Assembly: GCA_903848955.1 (NCBI GenBank)
Contig: CAINHS010000060.1
Location: 1-41,447 of the forward strand
Origin: an uncultured beta proteobacterium
Lineage (GTDB): Bacteria; Pseudomonadota; Gammaproteobacteria; Burkholderiales; Rhodocyclaceae
Direction of reading: 5' to 3'
Length of the DNA: 41,447 bases
Shown: piece by piece, positions 800-25,549 of the stretch
Numbering within the stretch: the stretch's first letter is position 1
Layout: each line of letters begins with the position of its first letter
Translations under genes and position numbers: made by a program
Notes under the pieces: model-generated
What the model was told of the DNA's origin: nothing
Seen by the model: only the letters and a program-made list of their open reading frames with translations
Databases searched by the model: none

Positions 800-800
800 G

Positions 801-4330: not shown

Positions 4331-4336
4331 GGTGGT

Positions 4337-5090: not shown

Positions 5091-5106
5091 ATCAACCTCC
5101 ATGTTA

Positions 5107-5179: not shown

Positions 5180-5270
5180 TCCAGCATCACCGGCAACACA
5201 CCGGCTCCGCAACCCACAGCGCTACGGACGACGCACGCTTGTGGGCTATCCCCCGCGCTAAACAGGGTCG

Positions 5271-5792: not shown

Positions 5793-5823
5793 ATTAGAAC
5801 CTCGCAAGCGCCCGTAAGCGCAG

Positions 5824-6755: not shown

Positions 6756-6757
6756 TT

Positions 6758-7306
6758 TCACTCCTTCAGCAGCTTCGCGCGCACAAGCACGTCGCGCTGC
6801 ATTTGCGTTGTTCCGACCGGGTCTGCGGCGTCGCGGCCCATCCGCGCCAGCGTGTAGGCGTCGGCTAGGTTGTTGTCGTTGCCGCAGTCGAAGCCCCAGC
6901 GTTTGTAGACCTGCAGCATCACGGCGTCTTTGGGCGCGTTGCCGGCCCCGGTGGCGTACTTTTTCAGTAACTGCGGCGCCACCTCGATCGCATCGAACGC
7001 ATGCAAACCCAGCCGGACGATCCCGCCCAGCTCCGGTGCCAGAGTCGGATCGCCCGGCCCGTGCACCGCGTACCCTTCGAGCACGATCCGCACCGGCACC
7101 AGCTCGGCAACCACTTCGACGGCGGCGCGGATCTCTTTGGACACCTTGACGAAATAGGCGATTCGTTCGGCCAACGTGCGCGCGGGGTGCTTGCTTGCCG
7201 GCCACCCAATCACGCGTCGGTCAACGACGGCGCAGTCGCAATCGAGCATTACCAGCCCGGTCGCGCGCATCGAAACGTCTAGGCCGATGAAAACGCCGTC
7301 TTTCAT
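6758..7306 (-). CDS. RuvC-like Holliday junction resolvase
   Basis: 182 aa. ATG 7306 overlaps the upstream stop (ATGA). The fold's acidic residues are all visible: IGLDVS (Asp10), IVLEGY (Glu77), and DNNLADAYTLA near residues 144-152. A Lys sits in GNAPKDAV (126). The length matches bacterial and phage RuvC nucleases. It would cut branched DNA produced by replication and recombination. It lies directly after the probable annealing protein and two genes from the YqaJ exonuclease, completing a recombination module. Confidence 0.85.
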   Translation of the reverse strand: MKDGVFIGLDVSMRATGLVMLDCDCAVVDRRVIGWPASKHPARTLAERIAYFVKVSKEIRAAVEVVAELVPVRIVLEGYAVHGPGDPTLAPELGGIVRLGLHAFDAIEVAPQLLKKYATGAGNAPKDAVMLQVYKRWGFDCGNDNNLADAYTLARMGRDAADPVGTTQMQRDVLVRAKLLKE

Positions 7307-9203: not shown

Positions 9204-9228
9204 GTCACTGTCTCCCGTAGCGAATTCG

Positions 9229-10182
9229 CTACTTTGCTGGCCAAAACCGCAGGTCGCGACGGTCGTCGCTTTTACGCTTGACGGCGGTCCACACGTCGGG
9301 GAAATCCCGGCGCAGGGTTTCAAGGTCGGCACGTTCGGCGCCTTTGACCGGGCGGCAGGTGATCTTGCCCTCGCCGCAGAAAATGCCCTCGCCGTCACCG
9401 CACGCGGCGCGCAGCAGGTTGGCAAGCTCGGCTTCGCGGGCTTCGAGCGCTTTGATCTCGGCTTTAACGCTGGCAAAGTTTGCAATCAGTTCGCGCTCTT
9501 CACCCATATCAGCAATCCGCATCGGCAACAGCATTGACGGGTGCCGGTGTTGCAGCCACTTGCGGCTTGCCTCGCTGCCGTCCACGTCGGGGGCGCGGCC
9601 CAACACGATGTGCTGGTAGAACCACTCGCCGATCGTCTCGACCATCCAGGTCTGAAACTCGACATCCGGCAGGATCCGGTAGGTCAGCATCTTGTCGGCG
9701 ATCGGCAGGTACGCGCCCACGATCGCGGCCGTACCAGCGGGCAGGCAAGCCAACTGAAATTGCACCTGGCAGAGGTAGTGCGGCGGGATCTCGTCCGGCC
9801 CGTCGCCCCACTCCGCGGCCATGCGGCTGGTCTTGATCTCCGCGAGATGCCAGCCGTCTTTGTTCGCCAGAGCGCCGTCAGGGTGGAACTGCATCCACGG
9901 CTCCGGCCCTGCGATGCCAGGCTCGCTGATCGGGATGCCGTCTTCGACCATGGTTGCGTCGACCTCGGCGGCCGTCCAGTGCAACAGCCCGCGCTCCAGG
10001 TAGTTACCGCGACGGGTCACTGCCGTGCTTTTGTTCGCTGTGTCGAGCCCCTGCATTTGCATCCACACACCCATTGCGGATTGCCAGGGCGATAGACCCA
10101 GGATTGCGGGCGCGGCGCTTGCTCCGATGGTCAGCCGGCGATCGGCTGATTCGGTGCGTTTCAGTGTCTCCAAGAATCCCAT
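9229..10182 (-). CDS. YqaJ/lambda-exonuclease-type recombinase nuclease
   Basis: 317 aa. ATG 10182 is chosen over the upstream 10236 start because a promoter lies at 10215-10243 and a GGGG precedes the ATG. The N-terminus RRLTIGASAAPAILGLSPW is the YqaJ family signature. RGNYLERGLL, FHPDGAL and LAEIKTS give the PD-(D/E)xK nuclease residues. It would resect double-stranded ends to produce single strands for the annealing protein downstream. It is the first gene after the repeat-containing promoter. Confidence 0.88.
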   Translation of the reverse strand: MGFLETLKRTESADRRLTIGASAAPAILGLSPWQSAMGVWMQMQGLDTANKSTAVTRRGNYLERGLLHWTAAEVDATMVEDGIPISEPGIAGPEPWMQFHPDGALANKDGWHLAEIKTSRMAAEWGDGPDEIPPHYLCQVQFQLACLPAGTAAIVGAYLPIADKMLTYRILPDVEFQTWMVETIGEWFYQHIVLGRAPDVDGSEASRKWLQHRHPSMLLPMRIADMGEERELIANFASVKAEIKALEAREAELANLLRAACGDGEGIFCGEGKITCRPVKGAERADLETLRRDFPDVWTAVKRKSDDRRDLRFWPAK

Positions 10183-10206
10183 TTGAACCCCGTTCGGCAA
10201 CCGCCG

Positions 10207-10248
10207 TGGCAATAACGATAGCAACACAACTAGCAATCGTCAAGCAAT
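10207..10248 (-). promoter_or_regulatory. Leftward promoter with 12-bp-spaced repeats (site 2)
   Basis: Minus-strand -35 TTGACG (10243-10238), 17-bp spacer, -10 TATCGT (10220-10215), preceded by TTGC, which supplies an extended TGn. Plus-strand heptads TGGCAAT (10207), TAGCAAC (10219), TAGCAAT (10231) start exactly 12 bp apart and AAGCAAT (10242) follows 11 bp later. The heptad at 10219 overlaps the -10 with the same offset as at site 1. It reads into the YqaJ exonuclease gene and overlaps the end of the upstream gene. Confidence 0.75.
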
Positions 10249-10562
10249 TTCTTTGCGGGGTTCACATATTTTCGGATCCGCACGAATCCGCAGTGAATGC
10301 AGCGGTTTCGCAGCGAGTAGGTATGCGTGCGGTGTGGCGGTGTGCAGGCGACGTACAGTTTGGCTCTCCGCTGGCGCTGGTAGTGCGTATTGCAGAGCCC
10401 GCCCGCCTTTTCGACGTTGGCGCACCCGGCGACCGAACACCGGCCCGGCGTCGGGGTCACGCGGCGAACGAAATCAGGCCCGATCCGCCATTGCTGGTAG
10501 TGTTTAGCGCAGAATCCGCGACACTCCGCGTCCCGATCGCAATCAGCGTTTGTGCATTGCAT
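10230..10562 (-). CDS. Zinc-ribbon protein with repeated C..C..C..HY motifs
   Basis: 110 aa. ATG 10562 follows GGAGGGCTGAGA; the frame stays open to 10631. Two similar units (CTNADCDRDAECRGFCAKHY and CSVAGCANVEKAGGLCNTHY) are the zinc-binding N-terminal units often seen ahead of phage HNH nucleases. A third CIHCGF pair follows, but no HNH core is present, so it is probably a stand-alone nucleic-acid-binding protein. Its last codons overlap the promoter for the exonuclease gene. Confidence 0.75.
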   Translation of the reverse strand: MQCTNADCDRDAECRGFCAKHYQQWRIGPDFVRRVTPTPGRCSVAGCANVEKAGGLCNTHYQRQRRAKLYVACTPPHRTHTYSLRNRCIHCGFVRIRKYVNPAKKLLDDC

Positions 10563-10752
10563 TCTCAGCCCTCCGAGCGCTCTGGTAGCAGGGTCGGCAC
10601 CGGGCGCGAACTTCGGGCGGGCGCTGGCCACAGGTAAAACAGGTCTGCCCGGCGATGAAAATCAGAGCGTGGCTCAGCAGTTGTGCGTGATCTTCGTCGC
10701 AGGTCTCGCGGATCGCTTGGTTTAGCCCGTGGATCAAGTCGTCGCGTGTCAC
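10543..10752 (-). CDS. Small zinc-ribbon protein
   Basis: 69 aa from GTG 10752, which overlaps the upstream stop (GTGA); the frame reaches 10887 as a shadow. An N-terminal helix (RDDLIHGLNQAIRETCDED) leads to CFTCGQRPPEVRARCRPC, a Cys4 knuckle, and a basic tail. It overlaps the next gene's start by 20 bases. Unknown function, probably nucleic-acid or protein binding. Confidence 0.68.
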   Translation of the reverse strand: MTRDDLIHGLNQAIRETCDEDHAQLLSHALIFIAGQTCFTCGQRPPEVRARCRPCYQSARRAENAMHKR

Positions 10753-11012
10753 GGCGCCACGTCGCTGCAGTCCGGGCACGGGCGGCTGCCAACGCCGTCG
10801 CAGGCTGTGCAGGGCACGTCGGTCCACTCCCAGCCAGTTCCGTCGCAGACGCAGGGCAGACGCCCGTTGTCGCAGCCAGCTGGGCACGCATCGCAGTAGC
10901 TATGATCGACGCCTGGCCCGTAGCAGCAACTGCAATCGGTGCCGCCACAGCTGCGATCGGTGCAGTAGATCCGCCGTTTGGTTCCCCGGCAGTTTTCTCC
11001 GCAGGCGCTCAT
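10749..11012 (-). CDS. DnaJ-type Cys-rich protein
   Basis: 87 aa. ATG 11012 follows GAGGGAGCC. It has about eighteen Cys. The C-terminal half (CDACPAGC, CVCDGTG, CTACDGVG, CPDC) repeats the CxxCxGxG pattern of the DnaJ zinc-finger domain without a J-domain or substrate-binding domain. The N-terminus has CTDRSCGGTDCSCC. It probably binds two or more zinc ions. Stand-alone DnaJ-like zinc proteins occur in phages but their role is not settled. Confidence 0.72.
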   Translation of the reverse strand: MSACGENCRGTKRRIYCTDRSCGGTDCSCCYGPGVDHSYCDACPAGCDNGRLPCVCDGTGWEWTDVPCTACDGVGSRPCPDCSDVAP

Positions 11013-11055
11013 GGCTCCCTCGCGTGTAGGTCGTCAAAGTCTTCGATTGGCATGG

Positions 11056-11595
11056 CTAAAACTCCACAATGCGAACCCAGTTGAACAGGTCGGACCCGAT
11101 ACCAGCCGCGACCGTTGCGCAAGCGTCGTCAGGACCGAGCAGGATCAGCGCGTGCCCACGGCCTTTGACCTCGCGCTGGCCGTCTGGCCGGATAAACGAC
11201 AGGCGGTGCTTGGTGAATCCGACCAAGGGCTTGACGGGCCAGACAATGGCGCCCCACGGTCCGTCGCCCGCGACGGCGGGGCAGAGCACGGCAACCACGA
11301 TCTGCCAGCGAAACGCCTCGTTTGCGGCTTTGATCAACCAGGCGGCCGTTTCGGAAAACGGAACGTTCGCAAAAACGATTCCGTCTGCGGGGTCAATCCG
11401 CCACGACAGTTGCAGCCCGTCTTGACCTTGTCGAAAGTCGTAGGTTTTCTTGGCCTTAACCAAGCTCGCGGGCGCCCAACACGGATCAAGCGCAATCGGC
11501 GACAGGCGGTCGAGCACCTCGGGCGGTGTGTAAAAGTCGTCGCCGTTGTTCTCGGTTGCGATCCCACACGCGGGGTCGTCGCCGAACAGGCTCAC
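11056..11595 (-). CDS. Phage Dam-type DNA N6-adenine methyltransferase (PF05869-like)
   Basis: 179 aa from GTG 11595, overlapping the stop of the upstream small gene. DFYTPPEVLDRL near residue 20 and ALDPCWAP near 35 are characteristic of this family. The catalytic position reads FANVPFSE where family members usually have NPPY/NPPF, so the first Pro is replaced by Val. Length is normal for the family. It probably methylates adenine in phage DNA for protection, unless the substitution reduces activity. Confidence 0.82.
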   Translation of the reverse strand: MSLFGDDPACGIATENNGDDFYTPPEVLDRLSPIALDPCWAPASLVKAKKTYDFRQGQDGLQLSWRIDPADGIVFANVPFSETAAWLIKAANEAFRWQIVVAVLCPAVAGDGPWGAIVWPVKPLVGFTKHRLSFIRPDGQREVKGRGHALILLGPDDACATVAAGIGSDLFNWVRIVEF

Positions 11596-11759
11596 GACAG
11601 CACCAGCCAGCCGACAAGCGCCAAGACCAGGCCGGCCCCAAGCACGCGCACGCAGCGGAACAACTCGGCAGCCTGCAAACGGCGCTCGCAGGGGTCACAG
11701 CACAGGCCGCGGTCGGTGTGCGCGCAAAGGCAGTGGGGACATTGTTTCCGATTTTGCAT
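11592..11759 (-). CDS. Tiny zinc-ribbon membrane protein
   Basis: 55 aa, below many ORF length cut-offs. ATG 11759 overlaps the helicase-loader stop (TGATG) and its own stop overlaps the next start. Residues 7-24 carry CPHC, CAH and CCDPC, a zinc-ribbon pattern. Residues about 37-54 are hydrophobic (LGAGLVLALVGWLVLS), giving a C-terminal transmembrane helix. Coding is supported by both overlaps and by this domain logic. Function unknown. Confidence 0.68.
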   Translation of the reverse strand: MQNRKQCPHCLCAHTDRGLCCDPCERRLQAAELFRCVRVLGAGLVLALVGWLVLS

Positions 11760-12676
11760 CACTTTCTCCGATGGTCGACTTGACCGAAATCCAAGGGGGC
11801 GAGCATGTGCAGCCGCGACGCCAGCCGCTTGTCAATCCCGGTGCGGCCCCACTCGCCCGGCGCTGCGTTGTCGGCGATTACCGTGGGCAGCTTTGCGTCC
11901 AACCGCCGGTCAACCAGCGTGTGCAGGGTCAGCCACAAGTCGTCTTTCTTGGGCGCGGCGGTCAGATCGTCCAACAACAACAACGGGGTGCGCTGGGCTT
12001 CGGCGATCGTCGCGTTCGTCTGCATGGACGCCTCTGCGTCGCTGTACCCGGCGCGGATCTGGCGCACCAACTCGGGAACGTCCAGATAGACCAGCCGCTG
12101 CGCGTTCCCGACCCACTCGGATTCGATCGCCCGCAGTGCCGTCGTCTTGCCCGTGCCGGTCCCGCCGTGGATATACAGGCCCGGCGCACCCTTGCCGCCC
12201 ATCGCCGCAATCAACCATTTCTTGACCGCGCCAACCTGCGTCACCAGCAACCACCTATCGACACCCGCGCTCGCCGTCGCAGCCACACCGGCAGCTGCAA
12301 ACGCATCCCGCAGCGCGCTTGGGTCGGGCGCCCAATCGTTCTTGCGCTCGGCTTCGGCCACGCGTCGGAACCCGCGCCAGACGCCGTCACGCTGCAGGGC
12401 TAGGGCACCGCTGCCGTCGACGAACCGAATCGCGATCTCCTGCGTACCGCGCAGGATGTCGTACCCGTGCCGATCCACGCTGACGGTGTAGCCTAGGGCA
12501 AGCCGGATTTTTTCGACGATCGGCGCCCCACTGCAGGTGTGGCCGTACACCGCTCGCACGCGTTCGGGTAGGACGTAGACGCTGCCGCCGATCGGGCTGA
12601 CCCAGCGGCGATCATCAGGCACGGCCTCGGGCTGGTCGTAGTGGCGCATTTGGCCGATGAATTCAGGTGTTGGCAT
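11759..12676 (-). CDS. DnaC-like helicase loader (AAA+ ATPase)
   Basis: 305 aa, ATG 12676 inside the end of the cytosine methyltransferase gene. Walker A is GGTGTGKT (171-178) and Walker B LLLLDD (232-237), in the arrangement of DnaC/IstB-type loaders. The N-terminal 150 residues are divergent and would contact the helicase or initiator. No phage replicative helicase is present, so it should recruit host DnaB, as lambda P does. It pairs with the initiator gene at 13910-14794. Confidence 0.85.
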   Translation of the reverse strand: MPTPEFIGQMRHYDQPEAVPDDRRWVSPIGGSVYVLPERVRAVYGHTCSGAPIVEKIRLALGYTVSVDRHGYDILRGTQEIAIRFVDGSGALALQRDGVWRGFRRVAEAERKNDWAPDPSALRDAFAAAGVAATASAGVDRWLLVTQVGAVKKWLIAAMGGKGAPGLYIHGGTGTGKTTALRAIESEWVGNAQRLVYLDVPELVRQIRAGYSDAEASMQTNATIAEAQRTPLLLLDDLTAAPKKDDLWLTLHTLVDRRLDAKLPTVIADNAAPGEWGRTGIDKRLASRLHMLAPLDFGQVDHRRK

Positions 12677-13901
12677 TGTCTACCTCGTGGATTTGCTCGC
12701 CGATCCACCGCATAACTGGCACCGCCATTGAGTTGCCGATCGCCCGATAGCGCGGCCCATCGCAGGCGGGTTTGCCGCGGTAGGGCACGAGCGTCCAATC
12801 GTCGGGGAATCCCTGCAACCGCTCGCACTCGCGCGGGGTTAGCCTCCGGACCGTTGACCCGACCTTGACCCCGTCCCCCGTGTCTTGGGCGCCCAGCGGG
12901 TCGGTCACCTTGCCGCACGTCGGATCCTGCCGCGCGTTGAAGGCGATCGCGCCGGGCGTGCCCGAAGCCGGCAGCGTATGGCAGGGGTCGCCTGGGCGGA
13001 CTTGACTGCGGTTCGTCTTGCTCGTCACCTGCTGCGGGCTAAAGGCGAATACCATCGGCGTGCTGCCGTCCAGGTCATTGCGCGGATGGTGGCCAGCGAG
13101 CGGGCCGACAATCAGCGTCGCCCTATCGCTTCCAGACTGCTTGCCGTGGCTTGCGGGCGTACTGCCGCCTGCCCGGAGCGTATCGGCAATCAACGGGATT
13201 CCGCGCCCCGTGCCATCCTCGCTAGCGTCAAACCCCTCGCCCCGCAGCGAGTGCGCGATCATCCGCCCGTCTGCTGCGTCGTTTTCGTCGCATCCGCCAG
13301 AGCTCGCAGTAAGTGCGCCGGCAGTGTTTTGCCGCGCCGCTCGGCTCGGCGCAGGATTCCCGCGCAGGCTGTCGCGCTCAAATAGTACCGCGGCAGCACG
13401 TTGCCAGGCGCCTCCAGCACATCCGACAACGAAGACGCGGCGGCGGCGCTGGGGAACTCCGAAGTGCTGAGCGTCCAAAACCCGGTAGGCGAACCCATAC
13501 CCGAGTTGCCCCAGCGTCCCGAGGAAGGCGCCAAAAGTCCGTCCGCCGTCGATGGACAGGACGCCGGGCACGTTTTCCCAAACGATCCACCTAGGTTGCA
13601 GTCGTCGAGCCAGCGCCAAAAACTCAAGCGTGAGGTTGCCGCGCGGATCGTCCAGCCCCGCCCGCTTTCCAGCGACGCTGAAAGACTGGCAAGGTGTGCC
13701 TCCGACCAAAAGGTCAACGGGTCCGGCATGGTGCGCCTCGATCTTGGTAAAGTCGCCCAGATTGGGCACGCTAGGGAAGCGGTGGGCCAGTACCGCGCTC
13801 GCGAACGGATCGATCTCGGCCACGGCGGCGCATTGCCAACCCAACCCATGCCACGCCGCGCTAGCCGCTTCGATTCCGCTGCAAATACTGATATATCGCA
13901 T
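12663..13901 (-). CDS. dcm: DNA (cytosine-5) methyltransferase
   Basis: 412 aa. The SAM-binding start is ISICSGIEAASAAW. Catalytic GGTPCQSFS has Cys71. WENVPGVLS (109-111 ENV) and QRRRRVF (151-157) are conserved motifs VI and VIII. A variable target-recognition stretch of about 150 residues follows, and RLTPRECERLQGFPDDW plus IGNSMAVPV close the domain. All C5-methylase motifs are present and in order. No restriction partner is nearby. It interrupts the replication module between initiator and loader. Confidence 0.93.
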   Translation of the reverse strand: MRYISICSGIEAASAAWHGLGWQCAAVAEIDPFASAVLAHRFPSVPNLGDFTKIEAHHAGPVDLLVGGTPCQSFSVAGKRAGLDDPRGNLTLEFLALARRLQPRWIVWENVPGVLSIDGGRTFGAFLGTLGQLGYGFAYRVLDAQHFGVPQRRRRVFVVGCAGGAWQRAAAVLFERDSLRGNPAPSRAARQNTAGALTASSGGCDENDAADGRMIAHSLRGEGFDASEDGTGRGIPLIADTLRAGGSTPASHGKQSGSDRATLIVGPLAGHHPRNDLDGSTPMVFAFSPQQVTSKTNRSQVRPGDPCHTLPASGTPGAIAFNARQDPTCGKVTDPLGAQDTGDGVKVGSTVRRLTPRECERLQGFPDDWTLVPYRGKPACDGPRYRAIGNSMAVPVMRWIGEQIHEVDNANT

Positions 13902-13909
13902 TGCTTTCC

Positions 13910-14794
13910 CTAAAACGGCACGTCGTCGTCAACGATCGGCGTTTGCACGGTCGGGCGTGGATTGGCCCGGTGCCTGCGCTCATCCTCAACCCGTTGCGCG
14001 AGTTGCGGATCGCGGTCCATTTGGTTGCTGAGCCACGTACGCAGCGTGCCGGGCCAACTCAGGATCGGTCCACTCTTGCGACGCCAGCCGGTTGACTCCC
14101 AGTAACCCAAAGCCGATCGCGCGATTCGGTCTGCGTCGCGGCCGTCGCAGCCGTCTGCCACCAAGATCGCGATCGTTTCGTCTAGGGTCGGCGGGCAGGT
14201 TGCTAGGTCCGGCGCTTTCGCCTTCAACGCCTTGGGCGCCTTGGTCTTGGCCCCTGTAGGGGCAGGTGCCGCAGGCGCCGGGGTAGTGTTCCTGTCCTGT
14301 TCCTGTTCCTGTTCCTGTTCCTGTTCCTGTTCCTGTTCCTGTTCCTGTTCCTGTTCCTGTTCCTGTTGGTTACCAGGAGCAATTTTGAAAATACCCTTCC
14401 GATAGGGTATCCCGTCAAGTTCGGATAACGCCGCATCCCGCGCACAAGTCTCAGGAAGTGCGGACAGTTGGCACCGCCAGCCGCTGCGATGTTTGTCGTT
14501 GGTGGCCCCGTGGCGCAATAGACTGCCGACGTGGTAGGCCATGCGCTCGACAGGTGCGAGCACGATAAGGCCGGCGCTGTGCAGCTCGTCAAGCGCGGAT
14601 TTTACCGTTGCGACTGTGAGACCGCCGCCAGCCTCATCGGCGATAAGCGCCGGGCGCACGTCGACAAGTCCCGTTTTCGTCCCTAGTTCTGCGCCGAACA
14701 GTTCAAGAAATACTGCGCGAGCCGCAAGGCTGACTCGCCGCAGCCCCTGTAGGTCGGTGTAGTCGATCGGGTGATACCAGTCAGGAGCGGGCAT
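13910..14794 (-). CDS. Replication initiator-like protein with Glu-Gln repeat linker
   Basis: 294 aa. Residues about 15-100 look like a winged-helix domain (LRRVSLAARAVFLELFGAEL ... VATVKSALDELHSAGLIVL), as in lambda-O-type initiators. Residues about 143-167 are a Glu-Gln repeat from an in-frame hexamer tract. A Lys/Ala/Pro linker and a C-terminal helical domain (LDETIAILVADGCDGRDADR ... GPILSWPGTLRTWL) end in VDDDVPF. That acidic aromatic tail resembles the partner-binding tip of SSB proteins. With the DnaC-like loader it forms the replication module. Confidence 0.75.
   Translation of the reverse strand: MPAPDWYHPIDYTDLQGLRRVSLAARAVFLELFGAELGTKTGLVDVRPALIADEAGGGLTVATVKSALDELHSAGLIVLAPVERMAYHVGSLLRHGATNDKHRSGWRCQLSALPETCARDAALSELDGIPYRKGIFKIAPGNQQEQEQEQEQEQEQEQEQEQEQEQDRNTTPAPAAPAPTGAKTKAPKALKAKAPDLATCPPTLDETIAILVADGCDGRDADRIARSALGYWESTGWRRKSGPILSWPGTLRTWLSNQMDRDPQLAQRVEDERRHRANPRPTVQTPIVDDDVPF
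14296..14367. repeat. Hexamer microsatellite, 12 perfect CCTGTT units
   Basis: Twelve exact copies of CCTGTT run from 14296 to 14367, with a partial unit before. On the coding minus strand they read CAG GAA repeatedly, giving a Gln-Glu alternation inside the initiator protein. Because the unit is 6 bp, length changes alter the linker but never the frame. Confidence 0.97.
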
Positions 14795-14806
14795 GTCGCC
14801 TCAAAC

Positions 14807-14887
14807 GGCAAGCCCCGCTCCCGACTGGTGGAACCCGTACCTGCGCGGATGGGACGCAGATCGGCCTAGTCGGAAGCGGGGCTTGCT
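14807..14887 (-). promoter_or_regulatory. Long two-tier hairpin in the leader of the replication initiator gene
   Basis: A 19-bp stem with one mismatch joins 14808-14826 and 14868-14886 (GCAAGCCCCGCT core). The 41-nt loop contains a second stem, CTGCG (14841-14845) with CGCAG (14855-14859). On the minus strand it ends about 13 nt before the initiator ATG (14794), just upstream of the GAGG ribosome site. Leader control of translation, a replication-origin structure, or a weak terminator (followed by CCGTTTG) are all possible. Confidence 0.65.
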
Positions 14888-14976
14888 GAATGAGGGGCAT
14901 TTCCATCCTTGCTGAGCATCCGGGTTCCAGCCGGGTTGCGCTCGCGGCCGAACCCTACCGCCGAAGCGGCTGGGCG

Positions 14977-15141
14977 TCAACTATTCGTCGTCGTGCCAGT
15001 CGAGCAACACGATCGCGCAGCCATGACCTCTTTCTCGCACTCCTTGCCGAGTAACTCAGCGATCGTAAACGACAGAATCAAAACCGTGTGCGGGTCGCAA
15101 CTTTCGGCGCGTAGTCGCTCAAGCTCCGCTATCAGGTCCAT
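14977..15141 (-). CDS. Small hypothetical protein
   Basis: 54 aa. ATG 15141 overlaps the end of the upstream gene and is preceded by AAGGG. The sequence starts MDLIAELERLRAESCDP and forms a plausible helix pair, ending in a Ser/Thr/Cys-rich tail that may be frame-dependent. In another frame the last 60 bases also read well (VLLDWHDDE), so the 3' end is uncertain. The 90 bp between its stop and the hairpin at 14807-14887 hold nothing I recognise. Confidence 0.5.
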   Translation of the reverse strand: MDLIAELERLRAESCDPHTVLILSFTIAELLGKECEKEVMAARSCCSTGTTTNS

Positions 15142-15391
15142 TGAGCACCCTTTGCAGTTCCTGGACCGTCGCCTCAAGCGTCGCCTGCAGGGCGTCCGTA
15201 GCACGCGCGGCAGAGTCCCATGGCCCGGTGTGGATCACGATCGGCCACTTGCCGCGCGTGGTTAAGCGACCGTACCAGCGGACCCTTCTCGACCCTGGCT
15301 CGCCCATGCCAGGGACGACCTCAAGCTCACAGTTGCCTCGCGTGCCGCGCCAGCCGCCGTTGGGCGCGGTGGTTTTGGTGTCAAAGTTCAT
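15119..15391 (-). CDS. Small hypothetical protein
   Basis: 90 aa. ATG 15391 overlaps the preceding stop (ATGA); the open frame continues to 15502 without support. The first part is beta-like and basic (NGGWRGTRGNCELEVVPG, VRWYGRLTTRGKWPIVI); the end is a helix (ARATDALQATLEATVQELQR). Unknown function, early operon. Confidence 0.65.
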   Translation of the reverse strand: MNFDTKTTAPNGGWRGTRGNCELEVVPGMGEPGSRRVRWYGRLTTRGKWPIVIHTGPWDSAARATDALQATLEATVQELQRVLNGPDSGA

Positions 15392-15552
15392 GCGAGCACC
15401 TGCGCCAACACGTTTTTGACCACCGTCACCAGGACCGGCCCGCGCGCCTCGTACAGACAACCTTTGTACTCCGCGCTGACGTACCAGTCGCAGTTGTCCC
15501 ACAGCAGGGTGACTTCATGGCACTTACTCTGCAAAATCACTATCTCGCGCAT
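15388..15552 (-). CDS. Small hypothetical protein
   Basis: 54 aa. ATG 15552 shares a base with the TAA of the upstream gene (TAATG), and its stop overlaps the next start. The sequence is compact and beta-rich with three Cys (MREIVILQSKCHEVTLLWDN, WYVSAEYKGCLYEARG). Coupling at both ends supports it as a real gene. Function unknown. Confidence 0.65.
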   Translation of the reverse strand: MREIVILQSKCHEVTLLWDNCDWYVSAEYKGCLYEARGPVLVTVVKNVLAQVLA

Positions 15553-16316
15553 TACGCACCCCGCTTGGACAGCTCGCGCCGGATCGCCCACTCGCGCATA
15601 GCCGGCGCCAAGTGCGCAAACTGCGGCCACGGGTCGGCGGGCGGCGCGGGCGGGTCTTCGGTCTCGAAGAAGTCAACGACTTTCAGACCATCCGACGTCA
15701 CTTCGCAGGTGAGCGTGACCGACTTCGATTCACCATCGCCCACGTCGACGCCTTGCAGCACGCGGTCAACCATGCCAAGCGGCGCGGGCTCAAACGTCGG
15801 CGCGTCGGCCTCGGTCTCCACGGGCAGATCGGGCTCACCGGGCGCGGGCGGCAGGTCGTCGGTGCAGGTGTCGCCGTCGTCGCAGACTTTGGGCGCGTGG
15901 GTCTCTTGCGTCGCCGGGCTCAACTGCCCCCAGCATTCCGCGTGCCAGGTGTCGCCGTCGCGCTCGATACGCGGCGCGTTCTTGGCGACGATCTTTTCGC
16001 AGTGCGGGCAGCGGGTGCGCTGCTGCTGCGGCTTGATGGTCTCGACGTGCACGCTCGCAGCCGAGTCAGCCAGCATGGCGATCGGCACCGCATGCGCGGC
16101 CAACTCGGCTTGCAGCTCGGCCACGGTCGCCCGCAACGCATCAATCTTGTCCGCTGCCGGGTCACGGGTCTCGCCGTCCGCGAGGCAGTAGGGCGCGACC
16201 TGCCGGAGCCACAGCAGGGCCTGTTCGGTCGCCTCGATTGCGGGTTTGGCTAGGCCGCTGTGCCACGCCAGGATTTGCGCGCCCAACAGAGCAACACGGT
16301 TTTCGGTCAGTTTCAC
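15552..16316 (-). CDS. Hypothetical early protein with central zinc knuckle
   Basis: 254 aa from GTG 16316, which follows GAGGAAAC; an in-frame ATG at 16328 would bury that site. An N-terminal helix (KLTENRVALLGAQILAW) and a coiled region (IDALRATVAELQAELAAH) precede CPHCEKIVAKNAPRIER ... CW, a zinc knuckle. An acidic Pro-rich linker leads to a strand-rich segment (KSVTLTCEVTSDGLKVVDFF) and a C-terminal helix. I do not recognise the family. It starts just downstream of a strong hairpin. Confidence 0.72.
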   Translation of the reverse strand: MKLTENRVALLGAQILAWHSGLAKPAIEATEQALLWLRQVAPYCLADGETRDPAADKIDALRATVAELQAELAAHAVPIAMLADSAASVHVETIKPQQQRTRCPHCEKIVAKNAPRIERDGDTWHAECWGQLSPATQETHAPKVCDDGDTCTDDLPPAPGEPDLPVETEADAPTFEPAPLGMVDRVLQGVDVGDGESKSVTLTCEVTSDGLKVVDFFETEDPPAPPADPWPQFAHLAPAMREWAIRRELSKRGA

Positions 16317-16347
16317 GTTTCCTCGCATTCCGCCGTTGTGGCGGGTG

Positions 16348-16382
16348 GCAGCAGGTAGCGGGTCTGAGCCGCTACCTGCTGT
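16348..16382. other. Strong 14-bp hairpin in an intergenic leader
   Basis: 16348-16361 pairs with 16369-16382: a 12-bp perfect stem (AGCAGGTAGCGG) extended by a C-G and a G-U pair, with a 7-nt loop (GTCTGAG). No T-run follows on either strand, so it is not a typical intrinsic terminator. It lies 33 bp upstream of the GTG start at 16316 and may be an RNA stabiliser or processing signal. Confidence 0.6.
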
Positions 16383-16385
16383 GTG

Positions 16386-16676
16386 CTAGTGCTCTTTGCC
16401 CCACGCCATATCGGCCAAACACTGGTCGAGTGCTCGCTAGCGATAGTCGTCACGCGCGCCGCCACTGTTGGCGATGTAGGCGCGAAGCTCGGTCCTGCCC
16501 GGCTTGCGGCCCGGGCTGCCAGCAAATGCTAGAATGGCCGTTCGTGGCCCTAGACGCCCAGGCGCAGTCGCGTCTCGATGCCATCAGGCAGGGTCAGCCC
16601 GATCACGATCACTTCTCCCAGCTCTTGCGCGGGGTTGTCGGGCCCTTCGCAGCATCGGCAGGCGTCATGCCTGCTC
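16386..16676 (-). pseudogene. Degenerate coding-like region without an intact ORF
   Basis: There is no gene with a start and ribosome site in these 290 bp, but the minus strand reads like broken protein. One frame gives EVIVIGLTLPDGIETRLRLG, then TAG (16552-16550). A second frame gives KPGRTELRAYIANSGGARDD..R, a TAG (16439-16437), then RALDQCLADMAWGKEH and another TAG (16388-16386). Neither has an ATG, GTG or TTG in a sensible place. A frameshifted and amber-interrupted former gene fits best; chance open frames in GC-rich DNA are the alternative. The 3' edge adjoins the hairpin at 16348-16382. Confidence 0.4.
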
Positions 16677-16925
16677 TTAGGTATGCGCGCAAGCCCAGCG
16701 CTCGACCTCGCCAGACCAAGTCTGGCGAATTTCTACTTCACAGTCTCCGCCGCAGGGACAGTCTCCCTGCGACGTTTCCGGGCACGCGTCGCAATAACCG
16801 ACGTGCGCGCCGTGAGAGACTGCGCCAAGACCCGGCGCGTCGGAGTGACGGATGCAGAGACTGATCTCGCCCGGCACGTAGGCCAGGCGGTATGTGATGA
16901 CTTGCTTTTGGTGATTCATGTTCAT
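16677..16925 (-). CDS. Small Cys-containing early protein, first gene after the strong leftward promoter
   Basis: 82 aa. ATG 16925 follows GGAGAAAAAA, a good site. The sequence starts MNMNHQKQVITYRLAYVPGE, contains CIRH, and near the C-terminus has CDACPETSQGDCPCGGDC, a likely zinc-binding loop, before ending in WACAHT. It is the first product from the promoter at 16973-17000, so it should be made early and in quantity. First-position early genes often encode host-takeover proteins; function unknown. Confidence 0.72.
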   Translation of the reverse strand: MNMNHQKQVITYRLAYVPGEISLCIRHSDAPGLGAVSHGAHVGYCDACPETSQGDCPCGGDCEVEIRQTWSGEVERWACAHT

Positions 16926-16972
16926 TTTTTTCTCCGTTTGGTTTCGGCTGCATCCTCGCTGCCGGTGTTGTC

Positions 16973-17007
16973 AGTATAGCAATACCGATAGCAACGTCAA
17001 TAGCAAT
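16973..17007 (-). promoter_or_regulatory. Strong leftward promoter with three 12-bp-spaced repeats (site 1)
   Basis: Minus strand: -35 TTGACG (17000-16995), 16-bp spacer TTGCTATCGGTATTGC, -10 TATACT (16978-16973), giving an extended TGC-TATACT. Plus-strand heptads TAGCAAT, TAGCAAC, TAGCAAT start at 16977, 16989 and 17001, exactly 12 bp apart, so the array overlaps the -10, the spacer and the upstream edge of the -35. The 116-bp gap 16926-17041 is distinctly AT-rich. Reads into the 82-aa gene at 16925. Confidence 0.88.
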
Positions 17008-17041
17008 AAACCGAAGAAAAGCGAATTGTGGAATTTATTTT

Positions 17042-17845
17042 CTAGCGGTTCGGAATTCGCGAAAGTGCGGCCCGAGCGACCACGAATTGCGCTCCGTCTG
17101 CGAACTCGACCAAAACCGTCGAGTGCATGAACGTGCCGTGCCCCTTGCCGTTGCGTACGATGCGGCAGACCTGCCCGCGCCGACTGCCACACTCGCCGGT
17201 AGACCACGAGAACCGATACGGGAAATCGGGATCTGGCATCGTGGCGCCTCCGGGCCAGTCGGTGGTTTCGTCCGCGTCCACGGGCAGGCTGTCGTCGTCT
17301 AGCGGTTCGCTGGGCCCGGTGATGGGCGTGGGCTTGGGGTCCGCGGCCTCGGCTACGGTCAGCGGAGGTAATTTGCCGGATTTCAGCAGCACATCAATCA
17401 GCAACTTGCCGCCGGGCTGGTAGGTGTGAACCCCGTTCAGTAACACAAAATCCGACGCGACCTGGGCGACGATATCGTGCGCGGTGCGCATTGCGGCTAG
17501 ACCGCGCTCCAGCTGGTCGACGCGGGCCGACTGATCCCGCAGGACCGAAATCAGAACCATCACCCGCTGGGCATCGCGCGGCCAGCCGTTGAGCGCCAGC
17601 GCGCCGAGCTTGCGCGGGTTTTCGCGTGGCCAGGACCGATGGCGCTTTTGCAGGATCAGCTCGGCCTGCTTAAACCAGTCGACCAGATCGACCTTTTTGG
17701 GTTCGGCGTCGCTGGTACCAGGTTGCGACGCGTCTTGCTGCTGCAGGGGCGACACGTCGTCAGCGCATGCCGGAGATGCGTCGCTCTCGGCCGACTGCGA
17801 CGGCTGTGCAATCTCGGCCGGGGTCGGGTTCAGATTCTCGTTCAT
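17042..17845 (-). CDS. Hypothetical early protein, first gene of the leftward region
   Basis: 267 aa. The ATG at 17845 follows GAGGACAAA; the frame could start at 17935, but that would swallow the divergent promoter region. The N-terminus (about 45 residues) is Ser/Pro/Asp-rich and probably disordered. Residues about 50-150 are helical (VDLVDWFKQAELILQKRH, MVLISVLRDQSARVDQLERG). The C-terminal 60 residues are strand-like with Cys (CGSRRGQVCRIVRNGKGHG, VLVEFADGAQFVVAR). Unknown family. Confidence 0.75.
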   Translation of the reverse strand: MNENLNPTPAEIAQPSQSAESDASPACADDVSPLQQQDASQPGTSDAEPKKVDLVDWFKQAELILQKRHRSWPRENPRKLGALALNGWPRDAQRVMVLISVLRDQSARVDQLERGLAAMRTAHDIVAQVASDFVLLNGVHTYQPGGKLLIDVLLKSGKLPPLTVAEAADPKPTPITGPSEPLDDDSLPVDADETTDWPGGATMPDPDFPYRFSWSTGECGSRRGQVCRIVRNGKGHGTFMHSTVLVEFADGAQFVVARAALSRIPNR

Positions 17846-17879
17846 TTTGTCCTCGCGCGCCGGTGTGGCGACGCGGGCA

Positions 17880-17908
17880 AGTCTACCCAGATCGGCGGTT
17901 TTCGTCAC
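17880..17908 (-). promoter_or_regulatory. Candidate leftward promoter for the first early gene
   Basis: Minus strand GTGACG (17908-17903), 17-bp spacer, TAGACT (17885-17880), about 35 bp before the ATG at 17845. Each hexamer matches four of six consensus bases. It lacks the 12-bp heptad array seen at the other promoters, so it may be the constitutive immediate-early one. Confidence 0.4.
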
Positions 17909-17911
17909 GCG

Positions 17912-17940
17912 TTGCCGGGGTCGGGGAATTGCCATATTCT
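17912..17940 (+). promoter_or_regulatory. Candidate rightward promoter for the ParB-domain gene
   Basis: TTGCCG (17912-17917), 17-bp spacer, TATTCT (17935-17940), 35 bp before the ATG at 17976. Both hexamers match four of six bases. It is back to back with the leftward candidate promoter, so this 130-bp gap is the divergent switch point of the genome. Confidence 0.4.
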
Positions 17941-17975
17941 GACCCAGCCTGCGCCGCTGCGGGTCTAGGTGCCCG

Positions 17976-18374
17976 ATGTCGAATCAAGAGCCTGCCGCCG
18001 TCTGGGTTGCCGTCGCTGACCTGAAGCCGTGGGCGCAGAACCCACGCGACAACGCAAAGGCTGTCGCCAAGGTCGCTGCGTCAATCAAGCGGTTCGGGTT
18101 CGCGACCCCACTGATCGCCCGGCCTGAGACTGGAGAGGTGATCGGCGGGCACACGCGGCTGGCAGCTGCTGAAAAGCTGGGATTAACACAGGTTCCCGTG
18201 CGTTGGATGCCAGGGCTGTCCGACGTCGAAGCGCACGCACTGGCACTGGCGGACAACCGTGTAGGCGAGGAAGCTGACTGGGACGAAAGTATGCTCGCTG
18301 ACGTGCTTAGACAGATCGACTCTGCCGGCATCGAGCTTGCCGCCGCCGGTTCGTCGCGGACAACCTGCGAGTGA
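17976..18374 (+). CDS. ParB/Srx nuclease-like domain protein, probably truncated
   Basis: 132 aa, ATG 17976. Residues about 10-110 are a ParB N-terminal domain: VAVADLKPWAQNPRDNAKAV, then GEVIGGHTRLAAAEKLG, with the GGHTR box conserved, and VEAHALALADNRVGEEADWD. Phage proteins of this type usually continue into a DNA-binding or methyltransferase part. Here the frame ends abruptly at GSSRTTCE, while another frame through the same bases reads RFVADNLRVMRAI and runs into the next gene. An internal deletion plus frameshift is likely. It is not a plasmid-partition ParB: no ParA or central HTH. Confidence 0.78.
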   Translation: MSNQEPAAVWVAVADLKPWAQNPRDNAKAVAKVAASIKRFGFATPLIARPETGEVIGGHTRLAAAEKLGLTQVPVRWMPGLSDVEAHALALADNRVGEEADWDESMLADVLRQIDSAGIELAAAGSSRTTCE

Positions 18375-18739
18375 TGCGGGCGATCGACCTGCAGGCGTTC
18401 AACGTGTTCGACCTAGACGCCTATGGCTCGCCGTGGGAACACATGATCGTGCTCGCCGCTCGGCGCAAATGGACTAAGGGCGAGCGCGGCGCGGTCATAC
18501 TCACCGATGGGACTGCGCTAAAAATGCGCTTTGGCCAACTGCCGGGAGCAATCGCGCAACTGTGCGGTGTAGCTAAAGATCGGATGCCGCCAAGCGGTGA
18601 GACTGGGACCGCCGCGCAAGAAATGGCATTGCGCGCATGGGCGGAGCGGTCTGGTGTTGCCATCGTCCGGCAGTGGCGCGCGGAGGGTAACACCAGAAAC
18701 CACATGGTCTATACCGCGATCGTCTTCGAGGGCAAATGA
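18374..18739 (+). CDS. C-terminal piece of a SAM-dependent methyltransferase-like protein
   Basis: 121 aa from ATG 18374 (TGATG with the ParB stop); GTG 18371 is possible. FNVFDLDAYGSPW resembles motif IV of class I methyltransferases such as Trm1-type enzymes (DxDPFGSP). The usual SAM-binding motif I is missing. The frame is open upstream of the ATG and reads RFVADNLRVMRAI, which fits the family, so the present start probably lies inside an older, longer gene. The last 31 bp overlap the convergent DUF5131 gene. Confidence 0.55.
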   Translation: MRAIDLQAFNVFDLDAYGSPWEHMIVLAARRKWTKGERGAVILTDGTALKMRFGQLPGAIAQLCGVAKDRMPPSGETGTAAQEMALRAWAERSGVAIVRQWRAEGNTRNHMVYTAIVFEGK

Positions 18740-19548
18740 AGCTCCCGATGCGAGTAGGCTGCCGGCATCGCCCCGGCGACACTCAAGGGCAGTTCGTCCC
18801 ACGTATGCCCGTCGAGGTTGCGCCCGGCGTAGTGCCCGACCGCGCCGCCCCACTGCTTGAACCAGAACGCCACGCCCTGCGCCAGGCACTGGTCGCGCAG
18901 CGAGCGAACCCAGTCCATACGCGATGGGCGAGCGGTCCAGCGTCCGTTGTTGCGGTCGACAAGCCCACGCGTCTCGCGGATCGCAGGGTCCATCAGGTGC
19001 GAACCAGACTCACCGCCGACAATGACCCAGTGGATCCCGGTCAAGTCGAGTTCGCCCAAGTCGCCCAGCAGCGGCTCGATCGACAGGAAGCGCACCGTTG
19101 CGTCAGTTTGTTGCAGCCACGGCATGCGCTCCAAAGCCCGCCTACGGTTCTCGACTGTCGCTCCGGCCCATACATTGGACGGAGCCCCGCCGCGCGCCTT
19201 GTAGTACCAGGCCGCCGCATCTGGCCGCTTGGTCAGCACCTGGAACCGATGCGCCGGGTTAGCCTCGATGGTCGCGAAGATGCGATCCCGGTATTCCCCT
19301 GGCACCTCGTCGAGAAAGAAGTCGCTCATGCTGTTCGCAAAAATCAGCGAGGGCTTCTTGACCCGCGCCGGTTCCAGCAGCTTGTGTGGGCGAATGGTCA
19401 GATCAAAGCCCTTCGGAAATCCGACGGTTCCGCGCTTGTTCTCGGCCAACGTTTCGGCGTAGCAGTACTTGCAGCCCTCGCTGATTTTCTTGCACCCGCT
19501 CATCGGGTTCCAGGTAAGTTCAGTCCAGTTGATTTCAGTCGCGTTCAT
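18709..19548 (-). CDS. Phage Gp37/Gp68-type DUF5131 protein
   Basis: 279 aa, ATG 19548 with GGAGTACT before it. The start EINWTELTWNPMSGCKKISE followed by GCKYCYAE is the signature of this family, whose Cys cluster suggests an iron-sulfur, radical-SAM-like site. IFANSMSDFF, FQVLTKRPD, NVWAGATVEN and WVIVGGESG are further family blocks. Length is typical. It is the only leftward gene inside the rightward half and looks like an independently acquired accessory gene. Substrate unknown. Confidence 0.85.
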   Translation of the reverse strand: MNATEINWTELTWNPMSGCKKISEGCKYCYAETLAENKRGTVGFPKGFDLTIRPHKLLEPARVKKPSLIFANSMSDFFLDEVPGEYRDRIFATIEANPAHRFQVLTKRPDAAAWYYKARGGAPSNVWAGATVENRRRALERMPWLQQTDATVRFLSIEPLLGDLGELDLTGIHWVIVGGESGSHLMDPAIRETRGLVDRNNGRWTARPSRMDWVRSLRDQCLAQGVAFWFKQWGGAVGHYAGRNLDGHTWDELPLSVAGAMPAAYSHRELHLPSKTIAV

Positions 19549-19610
19549 AGTACTCCAAGCCCCCGATCATCGGCGGGCAACTAAGTGTAACTCTTCGGCA
19601 ATCATACTAC

Positions 19611-19638
19611 AAGACGTTGCTGGCGGTGTTGCTAAAAT
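19611..19638 (+). promoter_or_regulatory. Rightward promoter of the same repeat-containing family (site 3)
   Basis: AAGACG (19611-19616), 16-bp spacer TTGCTGGCGGTGTTGC, TAAAAT (19633-19638). The spacer matches that of site 1 at 13 of 16 positions, and heptads GTTGCTG (19616) and GTTGCTA (19628) are again 12 bp apart with TTGC adjoining the -10. The -35 is weak, so activation may be needed. It points toward the terminase and late genes. Confidence 0.6.
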
Positions 19639-19648
19639 CCCTCTTGCC

Positions 19649-19789
19649 GTGAAAAACAACGACGTGCAGAATCGCCCTGAGACCGATCTTTTTTCGGTTT
19701 CCGGATATAAGGTGGTCTGGTTTTTCTGCGCCCGTTGTAGGGCTTACAGAAATATGCGAGTTTATTGGTGTTATTTGCCTGTCGTCTGA
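19649..19789 (+). CDS. Doubtful small ORF in the AT-rich island
   Basis: 46 codons from GTG 19649, only about 10 bp after the -10 of the site 3 promoter, so a transcript would be nearly leaderless; no ribosome site. The product has FFCARC ... YWCY, a possible Cys motif. Codons (AGG, AGA, TTT, TAT) differ from the phage's habits. Either a foreign fragment or non-coding. Confidence 0.25.
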   Translation: MKNNDVQNRPETDLFSVSGYKVVWFFCARCRAYRNMRVYWCYLPVV

Positions 19790-19880
19790 CGGTGTTTGAC
19801 CTGAAATAAAATACATAGTGAAATCAATGCTAATCAGGTTTAGCTTTCCGACCGAACCTGTGTAAATCACTGGAGGAGCG

Positions 19881-20492
19881 ATGCCACCCGCCAACGTGCC
19901 GCCACAGCCCCAGACCCCCGCTGACCCACCGCGCCGCCCGGTTGGGCGCCCTTCCAGGCTGACCCCAGAGCGGTCAAAGGTGCTGCTCGAAGGCGTGAAG
20001 ATGGGTCTGACCTACAAGCTAGCCTGCGCGAGATCCGGTATTACTTTCACGACGTTTCGTAAGTGGATTGAAAAGGGCGAACAGCAGGCAACTGGCGAAT
20101 ATCGTGATTTCCTTGACCTCTTGACTAAAGCTGAGGCGGATGGGGCTGCGCAGAGCATCGCGGCAATCAAGATCGCTGCGCAGAAAGACTGGCGCGCCGC
20201 AGCCTGGATGCTCGAAGCCCGACACCCCGAGGAGTATGGCCGGAAGCGTCTTGAGGTCACCGGCAAAAACGGCGGACCGGTTGAGCAGATCGTCGAGGCG
20301 ACGGTGCAGGCCCAGGTGGAGCATACTGGCGAGGTGCAGCTGCGCGGCGATGCGACTGCGATCGATCTGACGAGGTTGACCGATGCCGAGCTTGACGAAT
20401 TCGAGCGACTCATCGAGCGAGCGCGCCAGCCGGATGATGAGGATGCTGCCGGCGCTGAGCGACCTGCAGGCGGAGCGCCAGAGGCGGCGTGA
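19881..20492 (+). CDS. terS: Terminase small subunit
   Basis: 203 aa, ATG 19881 with GGAGGAGCG before it. A Pro-rich start leads to RLTPERSKVLLEGVKMGLTY and ITFTTFRKWIEKGEQQ (residues about 27-75), the helix-turn-helix that binds the packaging site. A helical middle (RAAAWMLEARHPEEYGRKR) follows, then an acidic C-terminus with DLTRLTDAELDEFERLIERA, usual for contact with the large subunit. The last 59 bp overlap the large-subunit gene. Confidence 0.88.
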   Translation: MPPANVPPQPQTPADPPRRPVGRPSRLTPERSKVLLEGVKMGLTYKLACARSGITFTTFRKWIEKGEQQATGEYRDFLDLLTKAEADGAAQSIAAIKIAAQKDWRAAAWMLEARHPEEYGRKRLEVTGKNGGPVEQIVEATVQAQVEHTGEVQLRGDATAIDLTRLTDAELDEFERLIERARQPDDEDAAGAERPAGGAPEAA

Positions 20493-21981
20493 CCAGCGGT
20501 GCCGGGAGCACCTGCTGCCGTTTGTCGAGGACACCACGCCGCGCTACGTCTCGGGCTGGGTACACGAGGAGCTTTGCGCGCACCTCGAATGGTTCTATGC
20601 CGAGGTCGCAGCCAAACGCTCGCCGCGCCTCATCGTCTGCATGCCGCCGCAAACCGGCAAATCGCAAATCATCAGCGGGCGTGCGCCGGTCTGGGCCAAC
20701 GGCCGCTGGCCGGGTCTCAACATCGGCGTGGGAACCTATGGGCAGGCACTGGCAAACCGCCACAGCCGCAACGCCCGCGAGTGCGCCCGCAGTGATGTAA
20801 CTGCCCGCATTTTCCCGAAGATCCGCCCGGCCAAGCGCGAGCGCAGCTGGTATGCAGACTACCGGCGCAACGACGTAGACACCGTGGTCGAGTGGCAGTT
20901 TGGTGGCGACGTTGACGCCAAGGGCATTGAGTTTCGCGGCACGTACAAAGCTGTGGGTGTGGGCGGCCCGTTCACCGGCTTTCCGGTTGACGCGCTCGTG
21001 GTCGACGACCCGTTCAAAGACGCCAAAGAGGCCGACAGTGCCGAGCGCAGTGAATCCGTAGAGGAATGGTTTCAGACCAGCGCCCGCACGCGTCTTTCTG
21101 CCGGCGGCGGGATCTGCGTCACCATGACGCGGTGGCACGACCGCGACACGGTTGGGCGGCTTATGGCTGCGGCGGAGGCCGGCGGCGAGCAGTGGCGTGT
21201 CGTCGTGTTCCCGGCCATCGCCGAGGCAGACGAGTATTCGCAGATCGATGGGCGCCTGCTGCGTCGGGCTGGCGAGAGCATTCACGAGGCCCGTAAGCCG
21301 CTGCGCGAATACCTCGCGATCAAGGGCTACGATAGCGTGCCCGGAACAACCGATGAATACTCTTGGGCTTCGCTCTATCAGCAGCGACCCATCCCGGCTA
21401 GCGGCGGCATCGTCAAACCCGACGACCTATCCGAGCGCTACGTCGACCTACCGACCGAATACATCCGCCGCGCGCTCTCTCTCGACACGGCCACCAGCGA
21501 CGACCCCAAGGCCGACTGGACCGTGTGTATGGACACGATCGAGGTTGGCGCCATTGTCTACGTCGTTAACGTCTGGCGAGCGCGGGTTGACCTACCAGAT
21601 TTGATTGAGTTCGCGCGCGGTTATGCGGCCAAGGTCAACCCTGATATCGTGCTAATCGAAGACAAGTCGAGCGGTCGCCAGCTCTGGCAAATGCTTGAAG
21701 ATCCGAACTGGTGTCCCGAATGGCACTGGCCAATCGAGAAAATCAGGCCCGAGGAGATCGGCAACAAGCGCCGCCGGCTGTCGCTCGAAACCCCGGCCCT
21801 GCGCGCCCACCAGGTGCGCCCGCCGATGTGGGCCCCGTGGCTGCCCGACTGGACCGCCGAGATCCTGGGCGCCCCGCGCTATGGCACCTGGGACCAAGTG
21901 GACGCCCTATCGCAGTTTCTCCGCTACCGGCGCGAGCATCCCGCAATGGGCGGTATGGCCGAGGCTCTGGCCCGGTGGTAG
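20434..21981 (+). CDS. terL: Terminase large subunit (packaging ATPase and nuclease)
   Basis: About 515 aa. The start is uncertain: ATGs at 20434, 20437 and 20443 all lie inside the small-subunit gene and none has an ideal ribosome site. The ATPase half has LIVCMPPQTGKSQI, a terminase Walker A (PPxxGKS), VDALVVDDPFKDA as Walker B, and a GICVTMTRWHDRD coupling motif. The nuclease half has ALSLDTATSDDPKADW and VLIEDKSSGRQLW. It drives DNA into proheads through the portal. Confidence 0.94.
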   Translation: MMRMLPALSDLQAERQRRRDQRCREHLLPFVEDTTPRYVSGWVHEELCAHLEWFYAEVAAKRSPRLIVCMPPQTGKSQIISGRAPVWANGRWPGLNIGVGTYGQALANRHSRNARECARSDVTARIFPKIRPAKRERSWYADYRRNDVDTVVEWQFGGDVDAKGIEFRGTYKAVGVGGPFTGFPVDALVVDDPFKDAKEADSAERSESVEEWFQTSARTRLSAGGGICVTMTRWHDRDTVGRLMAAAEAGGEQWRVVVFPAIAEADEYSQIDGRLLRRAGESIHEARKPLREYLAIKGYDSVPGTTDEYSWASLYQQRPIPASGGIVKPDDLSERYVDLPTEYIRRALSLDTATSDDPKADWTVCMDTIEVGAIVYVVNVWRARVDLPDLIEFARGYAAKVNPDIVLIEDKSSGRQLWQMLEDPNWCPEWHWPIEKIRPEEIGNKRRRLSLETPALRAHQVRPPMWAPWLPDWTAEILGAPRYGTWDQVDALSQFLRYRREHPAMGGMAEALARW

Positions 21982-22002
21982 ATAAGCGCTGGAGGTGCCC
22001 GA

Positions 22003-24247: not shown

Positions 24248-24251
24248 AATC

Positions 24252-25487: not shown

Positions 25488-25549
25488 ACCTCCCTAGGGC
25501 TCACCGTCCAGAACGTGACCGGCCGAAAGGCCAAACCGGAGATAAAATC

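Follow-up and report, generated by a model that had tools for sequence, protein, structure and literature searches.

Direct TTGCTA repeats at 12-bp steps in three promoter-like regions of a myophage contig: a possible operator array

What might a short sequence be doing when it recurs, at the same step of 12 base pairs (bp), inside three separate promoter-like regions of one phage? The question arises on contig CAINHS010000060.1 of assembly GCA_903848955.1 (an uncultured beta proteobacterium of the Rhodocyclaceae), the whole of which, 41,447 bases long and carrying the genes of a myophage, is referred to here as the window. The explanation that we favour, with a probability of about one half, sees the TTGCTA repeats as operators of a phage regulator, most likely a repressor, that are arrayed over sigma-70 promoters. 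At best reading, an early operon and a recombination module have the array in common, and with less certainty a late leader shares it too. The sequences and their placement over -35, spacer and -10 are shown here; the binding of a protein and its effect are inferred.

Repeats and promoter-like elements at the three sites

Sites 1 and 2 point leftward and site 3 rightward, and both reading of the DNA and a script confirm their coordinates and strands as given in an initial annotation of the window. On its own strand site 1 reads TTGACG-ATTGCTAGTTGTGTTGC-TATCGT (17-nt spacer), with the -35 at 10238–10243 and the -10 at 10215–10220, and site 2 reads TTGACG-TTGCTATCGGTATTGC-TATACT (16-nt spacer), with the -35 at 16995–17000 and the -10 at 16973–16978. 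Both pairs of hexamers were found by DNA reading and by promoter scan, and in both the -10 is preceded by TGC, which makes it an extended -10. Site 3, located by DNA reading, is AAGACG-TTGCTGGCGGTGTTGC-TAAAAT (16-nt spacer), with a poor -35-like hexamer at 19611–19616 and a -10-like hexamer, again after TGC, at 19633–19638.

All three follow a common plan, in which TTGCT stands directly after the -35 and TTGCTA follows 12 bp on, overlapping the -10. According to the script, the array of site 2 (16973–17008, leftward) consists of three TTGCTAT copies from 17006, 16994 and 16982 in exact 12-bp steps, the first of which (17001–17007) lies upstream of the -35. Site 1 (10203–10249, leftward) has four TTGC copies starting at 10247, 10236, 10224 and 10212, in steps of 11, 12 and 12 bp; the furthest upstream is imperfect (AAGCAAT, 10242–10248) as well as being 11 bp rather than 12 from the next, and the copy at 10212, placed downstream of the -10, is TTGCC. 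Site 3 (19615–19638, rightward) has two, TTGCTG at 19617 and TTGCTA at 19629. The heptad TAGCAAY had been claimed to recur every 12 bp at sites 1 and 2, and it does so at all the copies named except 10207–10213, which reads TGGCAAT. Within-site hexamers match at 12 bp in 6/6, 6/6 and 5/6 positions, and the register of the repeats relative to the -10 is identical at the three sites. After one gap the spacers agree at 12/16 (sites 1 and 2), 13/16 (1 and 3) and 13/16 (2 and 3) positions, or 75–81%, the first two values reproducing the earlier ones; the flanking sequences look unlike each other by eye. A 12-bp step was computed to rotate each unit by 51.6 degrees from the last, so the suggestion that the units share one helical face is not supported.

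Sigma-70 scans covered positions 1–40499. Within 9000–20500 only sites 1 and 2 were called (2 found against 1.9 in shuffled sequence), and elsewhere there was none in 1–9000 and one in 20500–40499, at 24084–24111, which makes the two sites 2/3 of all promoter-like matches. Site 1 matches the consensus hexamers at 9/12 and site 2 at 10/12 positions, each with the TG of an extended -10 in the scan, and both have the hexamers, 16–18 nt spacing and TGn expected of sigma-70 extended -10 promoters. Their -10 elements lie 33 bp (site 1, start at 10182) and 48 bp (site 2, start at 16925) upstream of start codons assigned by eye, and we regard the two as probable promoters, predicted from these features. 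Site 3 is promoter-like and weaker on every count: it has TGC-TAAAAT, but its -35 is poor, it has only two copies, and it was not called by the scan.

Chance and occurrence elsewhere

The repeat pattern itself is a real but modest feature, and its statistics are strong in intergenic DNA only. TTGCT-N7-TTGC has 7 matches in the window compared to 0.35 expected, 5 of the 7 inside the three sites, and the only window matches of GACG-N0/1-TTGCT-N7-TTGCTA are the three sites, with 0 in 60 shuffles; both of these patterns were picked after the sites had been seen. TAGCAAY matches 10 times against 3.5 expected, a number reached by 1 of 100 shuffles, and 6 of the 10 are in the sites. For the spacers we held the TG of the extended -10 fixed and drew 200,000 triples from the spacers' own composition; the observed sum of identities was reached by 3 of them and the observed minimum by 9. 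With any 5-mer allowed and the whole window considered, the pair of TTGCT and a 12-bp distance ranked first by p-value; it occurs in four separate places, namely the three sites and one near 2858 that is not a site.

For intergenic DNA we used a map of 1,806 bases, which was drawn by hand with the sites already known, is incomplete, and next to site 1 takes in about 30 bp from the 3′ end of the neighbouring gene. TTGCT at 12 bp occurs there in three regions, and none of 1000 shuffles had any 5-mer doing so. Among 6-mers, TTGCTA occurs in two regions with three pairs, a combination reached by 0 of 1000 shuffles (two regions alone by 5 of 1000), while the 4-mer result was equalled by 39 of 1000. 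A weight matrix of the unit gave 23–30 bits for the five site pairs, on which it had been trained, compared to 14.9 bits for the next best match, a hexamer microsatellite. This microsatellite (TGTTCC, 14287–14367, 13.7 copies, 97% match) lies within a DnaD-like gene (13910–14794), where it encodes a Glu-Gln repeat and is a possible slippage site.

We also looked for the pattern outside the window, which belongs to a bin of 3.62 Mb in 151 contigs. A bin-wide search for TTGCT-N7-TTGCTA, which the initial annotation had proposed as a check, gave 4 matches, all on the phage contig, and the reversed control also gave 4; the number is ordinary, the clustering on one contig is not. Because all four lie on the phage contig, an origin of the array in a host regulon is disfavoured. 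Across 399 sampled genomes of the order, GACG-N0/1-TTGCT-N7-TTGCTA was found nowhere beyond the window, its reversed control occurring once each in 4 of the 399; TTGCTATN5TTGCTA gave single matches in 3 of 41 other genomes and the reversed control in 5 of 41. In viral contigs, TTGACG-N0/1-TTGCT-N7-TTGCTA matched at 38 loci, once each, which form groups of near-identical sequence and appear coding-like by eye, and a triple 12-bp TTGCTAT pattern matched at 20 loci, mostly TTGCTA hexamer runs or longer repeats by eye. At one of these 20, on an unrelated viral contig (L022, 1377–1406), TTGCTATAC occurs three times, 12 bp apart, with what by eye is the end of a tRNA on one side and an integrase-like gene on the other; these are probably attachment-site repeats and not a promoter.

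Protein searches turned up only distant relatives of the phage. TerL matches 1,560 of 50,697 phage records, all at below 60% identity (28.7–31.8% in the 30 matches listed), and the matches of the head protein and portal in phage records are likewise all below 60%. As single queries in viral contigs, TerL, the exonuclease encoded after site 1 and a DUF5131 protein found no relative. Of 60 other genomes, 2 have a match to the exonuclease, at 28–30% identity; the 297-aa protein of 17042–17935 has no match in phages, and the 82-aa protein of 16677–16925 has none in 397 other genomes. In a sample of TerL alignments at 26–36% identity (the best 80 of 366 genome loci and the best 80 of at least 589 viral loci; 2.30 Mb), GACG-N0/1-TTGCT-N7-TTGC had no match among those best 160 loci, TTGCT-N7-TTGCTA had 2 compared to 0 in the reversed control, and a triple TTGC-N8 pattern had 5 compared to 1.

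A proposed operator array and its alternatives

Under the operator reading, a phage regulator, probably made early, would bind neighbouring 12-bp units in one shared orientation and so cover the -35, spacer and -10, shutting out host RNA polymerase. Sites 1 and 2, with their extended -10, would fire unaided after entry and later be switched off, and the predicted tightness of binding would fall from site 2 (three perfect units) through site 1 (four, two of them imperfect) to site 3 (two, with a poor -35). Promoters that are expected to work unaided have their core covered by the array, which makes a repressing role likelier than an activating one. The in-register copies outside the promoter core, which precede the -35 at site 2 and follow the -10 at site 1, are unneeded by polymerase contacts, and a DNA-binding protein tiling the region would need them. 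The phage regulon with an operator array that the initial annotation envisaged stands as the best reading of the shared array, though neither its single helical face nor its named binder is supported.

Several observations weigh against this reading. The whole-window p-value for any 5-mer was reached by 4 of 60 shuffles and is marginal, and TTGCTA fails the three-place rule in the corresponding whole-window test of 6-mers. Promoter-like matches are no more numerous than in shuffled sequence, so their count is no evidence, while the position of sites 1 and 2 is; and the TTGC in front of each -10 also supplies the TGn of an extended -10, so that it is not independent of being a promoter. Known cooperative binders that line up head-to-tail step by 10–11 bp, unlike the 12-bp step here with its rotation of 51.6 degrees per unit. 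Among the proteins scanned, which were part of the open reading frames, there is no integrase or typical repressor pair, and no binder was recognised, the one helix-turn-helix (HTH) candidate, at 5824–6159, being weak and its structural model poor. The phage, viral and genome searches yielded no relative close enough for a test of conservation.

The sites might instead be sigma-70 extended -10 promoters alike by descent, as copied cassettes, or by polymerase preference, with no dedicated binder. Such a shared class would account for the TGn, for spacers as similar as these, and for a GACG-TTGCT-N7-TTGCTA core that spans exactly the -35 to the -10; but the 12-bp repeat within each site is unnecessary for sigma-70 contacts, the copies at 17001–17007 and 10207–10213 keep their register outside the core, and the flanks are dissimilar by eye; we consider this explanation unlikely. 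That locally repeated promoter sequence arose by chance or drift of simple repeats and has no array function agrees with the 4 of 60 shuffles just mentioned and with the hexamer runs and longer repeats that make up most of the 20 viral loci. However, no intergenic shuffle did as well for 5-mers, and the repeats stand in three unlinked places, on both strands, in the same register to the -10; we consider chance the least probable of the explanations weighed here.

An activator offers a further possibility. Lambda CII reads TTGC-N6-TTGC, a period of 10 bp, and a CII-like regulator on TTGC direct repeats straddling the -35 would recruit polymerase. At sites 1 and 2 the -35 does lie between two TTGC copies, in the manner of the CII-specific repeats, which are described as straddling the -35 (PMC3335776). 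Yet the steps here are 12 bp (once 11) and not 10, further copies occupy the spacer and the DNA past the -10, positions at which a bound protein should block polymerase, the good hexamers of site 2 (10/12) hardly require an activator, and site 3, which has the poorest -35, lacks an upstream copy. Activation of this kind is therefore improbable.

The nearest likenesses to the proposed operator array are other direct-repeat operators of phages. P2 C, a small HTH regulator with direct-repeat operators O1 and O2, is described as binding two 8-bp direct repeats, 22 bp apart centre to centre, that flank the -10 of Pe, in an account that counts just three other readers of direct repeats in the protein databank (PMC4752584). 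Our array shares with it direct rather than inverted repeats at an early phage promoter, which at sites 1 and 2 overlap or flank the -10, and differs in having 12-bp steps (every second copy at sites 1 and 2 being 24 bp apart) and 2–4 copies in three regions instead of 22 bp at one promoter; no P2 C homologue was recognised among the scanned proteins, where the best candidate has a Pfam E-value of 0.09. Apl of phage 186 is described with direct repeats 10–11 bp apart between pR and pL, both of which it represses (PMC7498355). Here too, as with recombination directionality factors in general, the likeness lies in tandem direct repeats at early promoters, but the Apl repeats are spaced by 10–11 bp and also occur at att, whereas ours are spaced by 12 bp (with one 11-bp step, at site 1), and the scanned proteins include no match to an integrase or Xis-like protein. 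PhoP-type boxes, described for PhoP as hexamer direct repeats separated by 5 nt, have hexamers at a fixed step as well; they belong to host two-component regulators, whereas here the matches in the bin are confined to the phage contig.

The array is akin in kind to the operators of P2 C and 186 Apl and is not classed with any of these groups, its geometry differing from all of them. The earlier view that no such system has been described accordingly goes too far where the kind is concerned. In literature searches, no title or abstract opening among those listed mentions a 12-bp TTGCTA promoter array, which does not show its absence from print. Most likely the feature is an operator array whose general kind is known and whose 12-bp geometry is unusual. 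The bolder proposal, that a regulator bound head-to-tail on 12-bp repeats built into the spacers times the three promoter regions by number and quality of units, as a single-protein clock of a geometry unmatched by P2 C, Apl or CII, is distinctly unlikely. If the operator reading is true, a single protein would bring early, recombination and perhaps late transcription under common control in a phage without close relatives, and as readers of direct repeats are in few cases understood, the binder would be worth solving; if it is wrong, what remains is a small family of similar promoters, of use for annotating this phage alone.

Neighbouring genes and the phage

The first gene after site 1 is a RecE/YqaJ-like exonuclease (9229–10182, leftward, start assigned by eye), and the first after site 2 is the 82-aa orphan (16677–16925, leftward). 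For site 3, the control of late genes proposed initially is only positional. Calling the orphan the first early gene was loose, as 17042–17935 is a further leftward gene (297 aa), upstream of site 2. Beside site 3 begins the leftward gene of the DUF5131 protein (18709–19548, Pfam E=1.6e-81), and the first clear gene downstream, after about 240 bp, encodes the terminase small subunit (19881–20492, rightward). The predicted leader RNA in between (19645–19735) folds with z=-2.9, with 2 of 200 shuffles as good, and has a U run, and it may possibly act as an attenuator ahead of the late genes. We did not rely on a terminator at its inner hairpin (19676–19728), whose z is -1.7 by itself and -2.9 when the flanks are included.

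The initial annotation had named the HTH protein at 5824–6159 (111 aa, leftward) as a possible binder, a proposal that found no backing. It is the only small HTH-like protein recognised, and a candidate regulator only: its best Pfam match, HTH_26, has E=0.09, below its cutoff, Cro/C1-type families match below threshold (E=0.09 to 0.25), and neither the phage collection nor 397 other genomes gave a match. A single-sequence model had a mean pLDDT of 63, too poor for a fold search, and one match to solved structures (E=0.19) was disregarded. Nothing ties the protein to the array, but its gene belongs to the run of leftward genes that follows site 1, and autoregulation is therefore possible.

The first and last 141 bases of the contig (1–141 and 41307–41447) are an exact direct overlap, and the contig is therefore probably a complete circular or circularly permuted phage sequence of about 41,306 bp. 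No 16S gene was detected in the bin; this lack, the fragmentation and the overlap suggest a metagenome assembly, and the host of the phage is accordingly uncertain. Rightward genes include those for terminase, portal, head, contractile tail sheath, tape measure and baseplate, a set that identifies a myophage. It is apparently lytic. Among the scanned proteins no integrase, Xis-like protein, typical repressor pair or lysogeny gene was seen. Leftward genes include those for the exonuclease, a RuvC-like resolvase, a DnaC-like loader, the DnaD-like protein and DNA methyltransferases. One of the last (11056–11595) was typed by PHROG (E=7.9e-14), its Pfam Dam match being below cutoff, and another (12663–13901) is a C5-cytosine DNA methyltransferase gene; the product of 2269–3003 has a DPPY motif by eye and no methyltransferase family match. 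A ParB-like gene and a 122-aa orphan (17976–18739) lie on the plus strand, flanked by leftward genes. Within the C5-cytosine methyltransferase gene, a stretch of 126 bp (13458–13583) matches Pseudanabaena phage Pan4 at 87.4% identity. It is the sole megablast match of 9000–20500 in the phage collection and may point to gene exchange.

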